A DNA stretch of 64,000 nt from Acidovorax sp. A79 (GTDB lineage Bacteria > Pseudomonadota > Gammaproteobacteria > Burkholderiales > Burkholderiaceae_C), in contig NZ_AP028672.1 of the NCBI RefSeq assembly GCF_041154505.1, forward strand, positions 1,935,001 through 1,999,000, in the 5' to 3' direction. The notes under the pieces were generated by a model that was not told the origin of the DNA, ran no database searches, and saw only the letters and a list, made by a program, of their open reading frames with translations. Of the stretch, positions 10,411-13,843 are shown piece by piece. A program made the position numbers and the translations under genes. The first letter of the stretch is position 1; every line of letters starts with the position of its first letter.

Positions 10411-11532
10411 TCAACGCGCGCGGCGCGCCTTGACCGCGTCGGACAGCTCGGCGAGCGACACCAGCGAGTCATCCCACCCCAGGCAGGCGTCCGTGATGCT
10501 CTTGCCGTACTCCAGCGCGCCGGGCTGGTCCTTGCCGGGCGAGAACTTCTGGGCACCGGCGATGAGATGGCTTTCGATCATGAGACCGAACACGCTGCGC
10601 GATCCGCCGGCAAGCTGCGCCGCGATGTCGCGTGCCACGTCCAGCTGCTTTTCATGCTGCTTGCTGCTGTTGGCATGGCTGCAGTCCACCATCAGCGTCG
10701 CGGGCAGCTTGGCGGCCTCGAGGTCCTTGCAGGCAGCGGCCACGCTGGCGGCGTCATAGTTGGGAGCCTTGCCACCCCGCAGGATCACATGGCAGTCCTT
10801 GTTGCCCTTGGTGTTGACGATGGCCACCTGGCCGTTCTTGTGCACCGACAGGAAGTGGTGGCCCCGGCTGGCCGACTGGATGGCATCGGTGGCGATGCGG
10901 ATGTTGCCGTCCGTGCCGTTCTTGAAGCCAATGGGCGCCGAGATGCCGGACGCCAGTTCGCGGTGCACCTGGCTCTCGGTGGTGCGGGCACCGATCGCGC
11001 CCCAGCTGATGAGATCGCCGATGTACTGGGGCGAGATCACGTCCAGGAACTCGCTGCCCGCCGGCATGCCCAGTCGGTTGATGTCGATCAGCAACTGCCG
11101 CGCGATGCGCAGCCCTTCGTCGATGCGGTAGGTCTCATCGAGGTAGGGATCGTTGATGAGGCCCTTCCACCCCACCGTGGTGCGCGGCTTCTCGAAGTAC
11201 ACGCGCATCACGATTTCCAGGGTGTCGGCGTACTGCGCGCGCACGGCCATCAGGCGGCGTGCATATTCCAGGGCAGCGGCCGGATCGTGGATGGAACACG
11301 GCCCGATGACGACCAGCAGGCGGTCGTCCTTGCCCGCCATGATGTTGTGGATGTTCTTGCGGGTCTGGGTGATCAGCGTCTCGACCGGCGTGCCGCGGAT
11401 CGGGAAAAAGCGGATCAGGTGCTCTGGAGGAGGCAACACGGTGATGTCCTTGATACGTTCGTCGTCGGTCTGGCTGGTTTTCTCGACGCTGCGGTACCAG
11501 GCATCGCTGGTGGGGGTGGTAGGGGCCGTCAT
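10411..11532 (-). CDS. aroG: 3-deoxy-7-phosphoheptulonate synthase (DAHP synthase, class I)
   Basis: A 373-residue enzyme condensing phosphoenolpyruvate and erythrose 4-phosphate, the first step of the shikimate pathway. Class I AroG/F/H motifs are visible: LVVIGPCSIHDP, FEKPRTTVGWKGLINDP (PEP-binding region), SVHKNGQ, and the metal-site block MVDCSHANSSKQ. The start has a good GAGGAAG ribosome site. Which aromatic amino acid inhibits the enzyme cannot be read safely, so the paralogue letter is uncertain. Transcription is very likely controlled by the attenuator at 11583-11715. A shikimate dehydrogenase (aroE) lies elsewhere in the window and is not linked. Confidence 0.93.
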   Translation of the reverse strand: MTAPTTPTSDAWYRSVEKTSQTDDERIKDITVLPPPEHLIRFFPIRGTPVETLITQTRKNIHNIMAGKDDRLLVVIGPCSIHDPAAALEYARRLMAVRAQYADTLEIVMRVYFEKPRTTVGWKGLINDPYLDETYRIDEGLRIARQLLIDINRLGMPAGSEFLDVISPQYIGDLISWGAIGARTTESQVHRELASGISAPIGFKNGTDGNIRIATDAIQSASRGHHFLSVHKNGQVAIVNTKGNKDCHVILRGGKAPNYDAASVAAACKDLEAAKLPATLMVDCSHANSSKQHEKQLDVARDIAAQLAGGSRSVFGLMIESHLIAGAQKFSPGKDQPGALEYGKSITDACLGWDDSLVSLAELSDAVKARRAR

Positions 11533-11582
11533 GGTTGCTTCCTCGTGGAGTCAGTTGAAGTGGATGGAAAAACGGGAGGGCG

Positions 11583-11621
11583 GAAAAACAAAAACCGCCG
11601 GGCTTTGCAGCGTCGGCGGTT
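11583..11621 (-). terminator. Attenuator terminator of the aroG leader
   Basis: On the minus strand an 8-bp perfect GC-rich stem (11614-11621 with 11593-11600) with a 13-nt loop is followed by TTTGTTTTT. It lies 50 bp before the aroG start and 38 bp after the leader peptide stop. The 5' arm of the stem can instead pair with the CGGCGG at the end of the leader coding sequence (11663-11668), giving a mutually exclusive antiterminator. Confidence 0.85.
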
Positions 11622-11658
11622 GGTATGGGAAGGTTGTGTCAGCTTGCGCGTTTTCCTC

Positions 11659-11715
11659 TCATCCGCCGGGGACCGAGATAAAAAACCAAAAATAAAACGC
11701 GCTGCGAACTTGCAT
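11659..11715 (-). CDS. aroG leader peptide rich in aromatic codons
   Basis: An 18-residue open frame, MQVRSAFYFWFFISVPGG then TGA. Residues 7-12 are six consecutive aromatic codons (Phe-Tyr-Phe-Trp-Phe-Phe). The stop falls immediately beside a CGGCGG segment complementary to the 5' arm of the terminator downstream. A ribosome stalled for lack of charged tRNA-Phe, -Tyr or -Trp leaves CGGCGG free to form the antiterminator; one that reaches the stop covers it and allows termination. This is the logic of trpL/pheL leaders. There is no Shine-Dalgarno sequence, and a -10-like hexamer 7 nt upstream suggests a leaderless start. Confidence 0.88.
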   Translation of the reverse strand: MQVRSAFYFWFFISVPGG

Positions 11716-11722
11716 GGCGACC

Positions 11723-11731
11723 AATGTAGCA
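11723..11731 (-). promoter_or_regulatory. Candidate extended -10 promoter of the aroG leader
   Basis: On the minus strand TGC TACATT forms an extended -10 (TGn plus a hexamer matching 4 of 6) placed 7 nt before the leader-peptide ATG. No good -35 is present. This would give an essentially leaderless leader transcript. Confidence 0.4.
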
Positions 11732-11820
11732 CAGGAGTGCGGCAAGTTTGGTGTGTTGCGATGGCGCTACAGCGCTGGTAGTCCGGATGCCTACCAGGCA
11801 TCCACTTCCCTCCCCCTGAT

Positions 11821-12599: not shown

Positions 12600-13635
12600 T
12601 CATCCAAGAAATCGACCAGGCGCTGGAGGGTTGTAGCAAGTGGCCATCATTGTCATCGCCACTGTGGCGTGGGCCTGACCGATTTGCGGATGAGCTTGCC
12701 TCCCATGTGGCGCATCTGCGCAAAGGGGTGCTCCACCCGGGGGTCGGGTCTTCGCGGTGCGTTTGCTGCGCCCCTTCTTGCATTCGCTGAGCGCCTGGCC
12801 TGCCTTGGCCTTGCGCTGGATACGCTCTTTGTAGCCCCTGGGCCTTGGGCATCTGGCTGCGCTGTGCGCTGGGGGCGCCGCGGTCAGCATACAGATCGCG
12901 GCTGGTGTTGTGCTCATCGAGCACTTCATCGAAGTGCGCGCTGTCATGTTCGCAAACCGTGCCAGTGGTGATTTTTGCGGATAAATTTGTGGCGCATATC
13001 CACGCTGATCCTCTCAGCTTAAAGCCGTGGTAGCCCTTGCCATGCTTCTTGGTGTGGGAGCATCCAGATCTTTTAGCCTGCGCTTGGCCTCGCTCCAGTC
13101 GCTGGGGATGTTGCCTTGCTCAAGCTGGGTCTTGTCTTCTTTGGTGAAGTGCTGGATGGGTGCGGGCACTAGCGTGGCGTCGATGATCTGCCCGCAGCGA
13201 ACCAAGTAGCCGCGCTGCAGCAGTTGGCCGTCCAACGCCTGAAACAGTGCTGTCACTCCGTCGCCGCCCAAGCGCTGCTGGTGGTGCCAGAGGGTGTTGC
13301 GATCAGAGATCGTTGGCACTGTTGGCGAACAGGCAAAAGCGCTGATGCTCATGCGGTCAAGCAACTCGTACTCCATCTGCTCATCGCTGAGGTTCTACAA
13401 ACACTTCAGGATCAGGCTGCGCACCATGACCGCCGTGGGGCATGCGGGATGCCCCCCGGCGGGCGTCCCCCTCTGGGCAGCAGTTCATCAATGACCTGCG
13501 TGAGGTGGTCAAAGTCGATTTGCCGGGCGATGACCTGCAGTGGATCGCCCAAGTCTGGATCTTTTTCTTGCGCGCAGCATCTGCAAAGAGGTCCATCTGA
13601 AGGGCTCTGTGCGCTTGTATTTTGGGTTTGCTCAT
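12600..13635 (-). pseudogene. IS5-family transposase, multiply frameshifted
   Basis: Transposase homology runs along the minus strand but jumps between frames. The start is MSKPKIQAHRALQMDLFADA (13635). It continues as QVIARQIDFDHLTQVIDELLP, then EYELLDRMSISAFACSPTVP and CGQIIDATLVPAPIQHFTKE (13014-13376). The end reads LYADRGAPSAQRSQMPKAQG, with QRKAKAGQALSECKKG and IGQAHATVAMTMMATCYN in other frames. All are recognisable IS5-group segments, including the DDE-region QIIDATLV. At least four frameshifts make it non-functional. Terminal inverted repeats could not be paired with confidence. Confidence 0.85.
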
Positions 13636-13843
13636 GCGGCGATTGTCGCGTTGGCTGGTGTGGTCTCGGACAGGGGGTTTTAGAGATTCCCTTATTCAGG
13701 ACATCCCCGGGACTACGACTACCCTTAACTGCAAACCGTGAGCTACCTATTAACAGCTCACAGCACTCCAGCCTCATTCGATGAAATCCACAGTGTTGCA
13801 CTTCACTTCTGAGTTCACGGAATTTCCCTCTCGCTCACCGAGC

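Follow-up and report, generated by a model that had tools for sequence, protein, structure and literature searches.

The gene for a type I DAHP synthase in Acidovorax sp. A79 is most probably (we put the probability at about 0.93) controlled by a ribosome-mediated transcription attenuator of the trp/phe type (Table 1). The assignment is carried by the parts of the element identified in the window (the whole analyzed stretch of 64,000 nucleotides), their conservation among relatives, compensatory changes in both of two mutually exclusive helices, and a modelled switch that falls at the end of a run of aromatic codons. The locus combines a leader ORF containing sensor codons, an intrinsic terminator, an exclusive antiterminator and, in the folding model, a stall-dependent release of the segment that provides the 5' strand of the antiterminator (segment 2).

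Table 1. Predicted elements of the attenuator and the downstream gene, with coordinates in the window
Feature	Coordinates	Strand	Basis
Extended -10 promoter element TGTGCTACATT, 7 nt 5' of the leader ATG	11723..11733	minus	sequence
Leader ORF MQVRSAFYFWFFISVPGG, 18 codons, no Shine-Dalgarno	11659..11715	minus	sequence and relatives
Sensor, six aromatic codons TTT TAT TTT TGG TTT TTT (Phe-Tyr-Phe-Trp-Phe-Phe)	11680..11697	minus	sequence
Segment 1 core AUCUC (UUCUC in most relatives)	11675..11679	minus	folding and alignment
Segment 2, antiterminator 5' strand CGGCGG	11663..11668	minus	compensatory changes with the terminator 5' arm
GAGAG, possible partner of segment 1	11656..11660	minus	each base kept in 197-200 of 203 leaders
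Segment 3, terminator 5' arm AACCGCCG, common to terminator and antiterminator	11614..11621	minus	alignment and helix tests
Segment 4, terminator 3' arm CGGCGGTT and U-rich tract	11584..11600	minus	terminator scan and alignment
Type I DAHP synthase gene (aroG type), 373 aa	10411..11532	minus	profile matches
Shine-Dalgarno-like AGGAAG of the DAHP synthase gene	11543-11538	minus	by eye

Under the proposed mechanism, the transcript would start at the leader ATG or no more than about 1-2 nt away from it, and its leaderless 5' end would be loaded with a ribosome that trails RNA polymerase. When charged tRNA-Phe, tRNA-Tyr or tRNA-Trp is scarce, this ribosome would stall in the aromatic run and cover segment 1, so that the free CGGCGG could pair with CCGCCG of the terminator 5' arm and allow read-through into the DAHP synthase gene. 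When all three aromatic amino acids are ample, the ribosome would pass the run and cover CGGCGG, and the CCGCCG..CGGCGG-U hairpin would stop transcription. Segment 1 can pair with GAGAG, which leaves CGGCGG in a hairpin loop, and an untranslated leader in the host species is accordingly predicted by the model to terminate by default.

The leader (codons ATG CAA GTT CGC AGC GCG TTT TAT TTT TGG TTT TTT ATC TCG GTC CCC GGC GGA TGA; ATG at 11715 and stop at 11661-11659 of the minus strand) contains the six consecutive aromatic codons within 18 codons that the preliminary description reported, and no other run of at least four aromatic codons exists in any of the six frames of the window; a run of six or more was likewise absent from 30 first-order Markov sequences of 64 kb. 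The T-tailed terminator proposed to lie just 5' of the aroG-type gene is present as well, in the form AACCGCCG-13 nt-CGGCGGTT followed by a U-tract (11621-11584, between the leader and the gene start at 11532). CGGCGG lies exactly at the position given for it, although the abutment of the leader stop codon on this motif, which was part of the same claim, is not general among the 203 distinct leaders of the host family. Elsewhere in the window, positions 12600-13640 of the minus strand contain broken short frames that, by eye, resemble remnants of an insertion-sequence transposase.

The downstream gene is recognised by Pfam DAHP_synth_1 and scores above the cut-off of TIGR00034 (type I DAHP synthase), but its score with the AroG-specific NCBIfam model is 548.7 bits, below the cut-off of 568 bits, so the gene name aroG is slightly uncertain. 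By this protein, A. facilis (97%) and A. delafieldii (95%) come closest among the named relatives. The host genome has a second DAHP synthase gene (57% identical), which was checked upstream and has no aromatic leader there. Genome G140 encodes two DAHP synthase genes in tandem (L347 and L348), with an aromatic leader before the first only, which suggests that one attenuator may control both. A search of the host genome for prephenate dehydratase (PF00800) gave no match at E 1e-3, and 14 of 14 control genomes did match.

Upstream DNA of orthologs was retrieved for 79 of 80 named loci (L013, the contig of which ends 31 nt upstream, was dropped) and, at first, for 130 of 150 genomes of an unnamed set drawn from 141 genera of the host family; the two sets overlap and together comprise 209 loci, i.e., 203 distinct sequences. 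Each of the 209 loci has a short ORF in which a stretch of 8 residues includes 4-8 aromatic ones (at least 6 at 200 loci), whereas the controls (five shuffles per locus, and the reverse strands) reach a maximum of 5 per 8, a level that is likewise not exceeded at 9 of the 209 real loci. Thirteen further family genomes added 11 leaders; in G083 a contig end cuts the locus just before the terminator, and G093 (L345) has no leader in the 109 nt readable before the match, with the DAHP synthase gene (62% identical) located 4 nt after the stop codon of another ORF. Altogether, the aromatic run anticipated by the preliminary description upstream of the DAHP synthase genes of relatives is kept in 141 of 143 family genomes, a count that leans to the closer orthologs because genomes with weaker matches (G040, G043, G068, G074, G112 and G115) are, together with G055 (no match), the 7 of the 150 that stand outside it. 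In all 203 distinct family loci, the ORF ends 51-90 nt from the ATG and the terminator starts at 86-113 nt.

Family leaders contain 4-9 aromatic codons each. The proposal that one leader reads all three aromatic amino acids holds for the family, with Phe, Tyr and Trp all present in 191 of the 203 distinct leaders (Trp in 194), but not throughout the leaders found elsewhere, where Trp is absent from 13 of 33 distinct sequences. Aromatic identity is kept under synonymous turnover between TTT and TTC and between TAT and TAC (TTT 557, TTC 323, TAC 221 and TAT 113 over the 203 leaders), a pattern indicating that the amino acid, and not a U-rich RNA, is under selection. The third positions of the run are mostly T or C, as Phe and Tyr require.

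The distribution beyond the family was explored with a covariance model built from 60 diverse leaders. In the host genome, the model has one strong full-length match, the aroG leader (E 7e-23), and one weak full-length match (19.8 bits, E 0.14), which is the leader of leuA (see below); sites that match only the 3' end of the model look like plain terminators (one of these, L213, was read) and were discarded. Among 250 Burkholderiales genomes, 69 match; in 60 the match spans all or almost all of the model (7 in the host family and 53 in 13 other families), and in 9 it is confined to the 3' part. The 30 matched loci that were fetched, 23 of them outside the host family, are all located 5' of a DAHP synthase gene, and a survey of 229 genomes of the class detected the leader before a DAHP synthase gene in 2 genomes, both from a single additional family that does not belong to the order. 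Given that 17 of the 52 upstream regions read outside the family contain the leader and 35 do not, its distribution there is patchy; these 52 loci come from 51 of the 63 matched outside genomes, the 12 with the weakest best matches having been left out. The 17 positives consist of 16 loci with at least 5 aromatics per 8 residues and L298 (4 per 8, terminator present). L302, with 5 aromatics per 8, was rejected as it looks like an ordinary membrane ORF and has no terminator.

These comparisons bear on the possibility that the leader encodes an arrest peptide similar to TnaC, the sequence of which would stall the ribosome in response to a free aromatic amino acid or another ligand and not to tRNA charging. 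The FWFS stretch is indeed highly conserved within the family (154 of 203 distinct leaders have TGG at -1, and 159 of 203 have TTC as the last aromatic codon), as would be expected of such a peptide. Nevertheless, we consider this scenario very unlikely: outside the family, the order of residues is free and the aromatic content stays (e.g., FYFYFYGF, FFFFFYFP, WFFFGFF and FYFWYYF), the codons turn over synonymously, the conservation of TTTTGGTTCTC could lie at the RNA level, via UUCUC:GAGAG pairing, and an arrest triggered by a ligand, if it opens the switch, would increase the amount of enzyme at times when the end products are plentiful.

For the attenuator, the evidence from RNA structure is comparative and not energetic because, in single-sequence folding, the whole leader is no more stable than its shuffles (z -0.23). 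In the 60-sequence alignment, the terminator is 97.5% paired and shows double changes at 2 pairs, compared with 0.2 in shuffles (3 of 500 reach this value), and its covariation score does not exceed that of the shuffles (85 of 500 reach it). The antiterminator helix GGCGG:CCGCC is paired in 88.8% of the alignment cells and contains 5 double-changed cells, compared with 0.6 in shuffles (0 of 500 reach this), spread over 3 pairs, compared with 0.6 (1 of 500), pair changes being counted per sequence and not as independent events. Accordingly, the competing stems that were proposed at the outset are conserved in relatives, with compensatory changes between segment 2 and the terminator 5' arm. In L205, the change is three-way (G to A in the leader, C to U in the terminator 5' arm and G to A in the 3' arm), and L036 carries U-A-U in place of C-G-C (leader CUGGCGG, 5' arm CCGCCAG, 3' arm CUGGCGG), a triplet replacement across the leader and both arms that recurs outside the family, in 12 of the 30 loci scored there. 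Eight family leaders have CCGACG opposite CCGUCGG, with the terminator kept by a G-U pair; these eight compensated cases (CCGTC type) may represent one or two lineages. L346 combines AGCGG with CCGCU, an A-U replacement.

At the unanchored flanking position, leader-to-arm pairing was found in 168 of 208 loci, compared with 158.9 after shuffling (2 of 5000 shuffles reach the real value), with 150 of 178 in the family and only 18 of 30 outside it; arm-to-arm pairing was found in 194 of 208, compared with 174.0 (0 of 5000). This count set aside 28 of 236 loci in which the anchor GGCGG or CCGCC is absent, several of the compensated ones among them. The exact GGCGG occurs in all three frames relative to the ORF (152, 25 and 2 of 179 in frames 0, 2 and 1, respectively; an exact match is absent in 24 of the 203 leaders), and therefore it is the RNA, not the peptide, that is conserved there. 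The hairpin between segment 1 and GAGAG is paired in 91% of cells and has 4 double-changed cells (1 of 500 shuffles), and slid versions of it score alike. GAGAG itself, which follows GGCGG at a distance of 2-3 nt, hardly varies within the family (columns 94-98 of alignment A1), a conservation that exceeds the weak evidence of its pairing; the motif is similar to the core of a Shine-Dalgarno sequence and may serve a separate function. Unbiased column-pair covariation over the 203 sequences was abandoned as its signal is dominated by shared ancestry (96:149 is the only one of the top 60 pairs that can be placed in a proposed helix), and for this reason the named helices were tested with shuffle controls. 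RNAalifold recovers the terminator only, as expected for mutually exclusive helices.

The ribosome switch was modelled by folding the transcript, cut before the terminator 3' arm, under the assumption that a ribosome covers positions -14 to +15 relative to the P site. For the leader of the host, the predicted probability of the antiterminator is 0.98-0.99 with each of the aromatic codons in the A site, 0.20 at the next codon past the run, 0.01 at the one after, 0.03 with the ribosome at the stop codon and 0.07 without a ribosome; when the leading edge of the footprint is varied from +12 to +17, the position of this switch changes by roughly one codon. For a ribosome on the last aromatic codon, the mean predicted probability over 102 of the 203 distinct leaders is 0.57, compared with 0.80 at the preceding codon and with 0.19 and 0.07 at the first and second codons that follow, whereas with segment 2 shuffled the values drift from 0.38 to 0.15-0.22 without a step. 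Stalling on Phe, Tyr and Trp codons gives 0.85, 0.91 and 0.90, respectively (98-102 of these leaders each), and a ribosome stalled on the codons before the aromatic run opens the modelled switch too. Averaged over all 203 leaders, the probability is 0.46 for the free transcript and 0.52 when a ribosome occupies the stop codon, and stalling is not above the stop state in 21% and not above the free state in 23%. These high means imply that masking by a terminating ribosome is not the whole story in the longer ORFs, and for relatives with such ORFs the idea that CGGCGG is invariably covered by the terminating ribosome was discarded; there, the closed state would need either a ribosome that is still moving across segment 2 or the 1:2 hairpin, for which support is weak.

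Another alternative is that the element is a constitutive premature terminator, or the source of a short RNA or peptide that acts in trans, with leader codons that sense nothing. An attenuator leader peptide, peTrpL, acts in trans in Sinorhizobium meliloti, as reported in PMC7298713, and the terminated RNA would here be about 130 nt long. However, such a function has no need for codons that match the pathway, for covariation of the antiterminator or for the modelled switch, so we consider it even less probable than an arrest peptide, although a role in trans could exist on top of attenuation. A chance open frame in T-rich promoter-proximal DNA, for which the T-rich run and nothing further speaks, is refuted by the conservation of the leader across the family (141 of 143 genomes), and the uniqueness of the run in the window and the predominance of T or C at its third positions also leave it a negligible probability.

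The attenuator leader appears to be translated from a leaderless mRNA; this had been a guess of the preliminary description and is now well supported by the spacing of the promoter and the lack of a Shine-Dalgarno sequence. Of the 203 distinct family leaders, 194 have an extended -10 element, and in 183 the gap to the ATG is 6-8 nt, compared with 56 of 4060 shuffled sequences (1.4%), a spacing consistent with the predicted transcription start. Given that a promoter scan of the locus yielded no sigma-70 site with a -35 element, the assignment of the -10 is based on conservation. An anti-Shine-Dalgarno pairing energy of -4 kcal/mol or lower was obtained for 2% of the 203 leaders, 9% of the shuffles and 84% of 201 DAHP synthase starts. 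In related bacteria, passages of the respective articles report leaderless mRNAs for Burkholderia cenocepacia (PMC4603805) and Cupriavidus metallidurans (PMC7563307); neither "attenuat-" nor "leader peptide" nor "deoxyheptonate" occurs in the main text of either article.

The pattern TGTGCTACATT-N5-9-ATG occurs at exactly two sites in the host genome, namely the aroG leader and a site upstream of leuA (2-isopropylmalate synthase, named from its sequence). The leuA leader, MNTFALALLLPPHGRRQ (G000:C1:770534, minus strand; L218 and L305), would belong to a second leaderless attenuator of similar construction, with Leu codons and its own terminator, GGCCCGTATGCACCCGCAACGGGCC-TTTTGTTTT; it is also observed in relatives from the genus (L307, L310, L312-L314, L320, L324, L326, L328 and L332-L335). 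Among 31 genomes, the pattern matches in 19 of 19 from the genus (twice in 17) and in 0 of 12 from other families. The 30 loci read from 36 pattern sites comprise 15 leuA and 15 aromatic leaders, with a DAHP synthase motif detected at 12 of the latter and 3 unlabelled by the script. The promoter element common to the aroG and leuA leaders lends support to leaderless translation and is a hint that a cassette has been reused. Upstream of trpE, locus L303 (G000:C1:2489737-2491134, minus strand) contains TTTGCTACACTTTGGGCC-ATG followed by the ORF MFIHHVFITGCSDRGAWPWRQPVSLNA (Trp-Pro-Trp), a possible leaderless trp leader judging from its sequence, with no obvious U-tailed terminator by eye. It is conceivable, if in our view rather doubtful, that these loci represent a Burkholderiales cassette in which one promoter type and a leaderless sensor peptide have been refitted with pathway codons (aromatic for aroG, leucine for leuA and perhaps Trp for trpE), and that the switch reads both the charging of aromatic tRNAs and the capacity for leaderless initiation. 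The latter would become a second input since leaderless loading has to come first and, in the model for the host species, an untranslated aroG leader defaults to termination; if true, this is an input that the trp/phe attenuators of E. coli lack.

Rfam 15, with its leader families (Trp, Phe, His, Leu and others), T-boxes and riboswitches, has no match at gathering cut-offs in the window, in the leaders of six relatives or at the host's own paralog locus, and a search of 11480-11800 at E up to 1 produced only a chance match to the lncRNA SOX2OT_exon3 (9.7 bits vs. a cut-off of 70). No such leader in Burkholderiales was recognised among the papers listed by our open-access searches or by word searches in PMC2965389, PMC8632094, PMC1262725, PMC4603805 and PMC7563307. 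What appears to be new is the combination of three amino acids on one leaderless leader and its near-universal presence in the host family; the mode of action would be that of the trp/phe attenuators. In E. coli, entry into the shikimate pathway is controlled through three isozymes, one for each amino acid, together with TyrR and TrpR; here, one cis-acting RNA element should integrate all three aromatics on one DAHP synthase gene. The element would offer a ready explanation for the control of aromatic supply in the host family, a natural three-input sensor and a conserved system for the study of attenuation with a leaderless leader.

The trpL and pheL attenuators of E. coli each respond to a single amino acid, and their leaders are translated from a Shine-Dalgarno sequence. 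The leader described here is similar to these in its sensor codons, in the four-segment logic and in the terminator and antiterminator with one common arm, and differs from them in the three amino acids, the lack of a Shine-Dalgarno sequence and the lack of a match to an Rfam leader family. The trpL leader of S. meliloti is leaderless. The ilvBNC leader of Corynebacterium glutamicum has no RBS, according to the title of a reference in PMC4046766. Both of these leaders, as far as the descriptions go, resemble the present one in being translated without a Shine-Dalgarno sequence but belong to other genes, amino acids and clades. The uORFC-13-1 motif of Acholeplasma, located upstream of aroF and tentatively described from 24 sequences in PMC8632094, similarly consists of a small upstream ORF with at least one Phe codon and a terminator before a DAHP synthase gene, but has an RBS and comes from a different phylum with a different consensus. 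The closest functional precedent is the aroR leader of aroF in C. glutamicum (Neshat et al., 2014), an aromatic-codon leader peptide (Phe-Tyr-Phe) 5' of a DAHP synthase gene, for which passages of PMC11802643 (where E. coli trpL and pheL are also named) and PMC4046766 describe ribosome-mediated attenuation and enhancement under Phe limitation. By these descriptions, in which no Trp is mentioned, the aroR leader of this actinobacterium is set apart from the leader described here, which belongs to a proteobacterial order and contains Trp in 194 of 203 family sequences.
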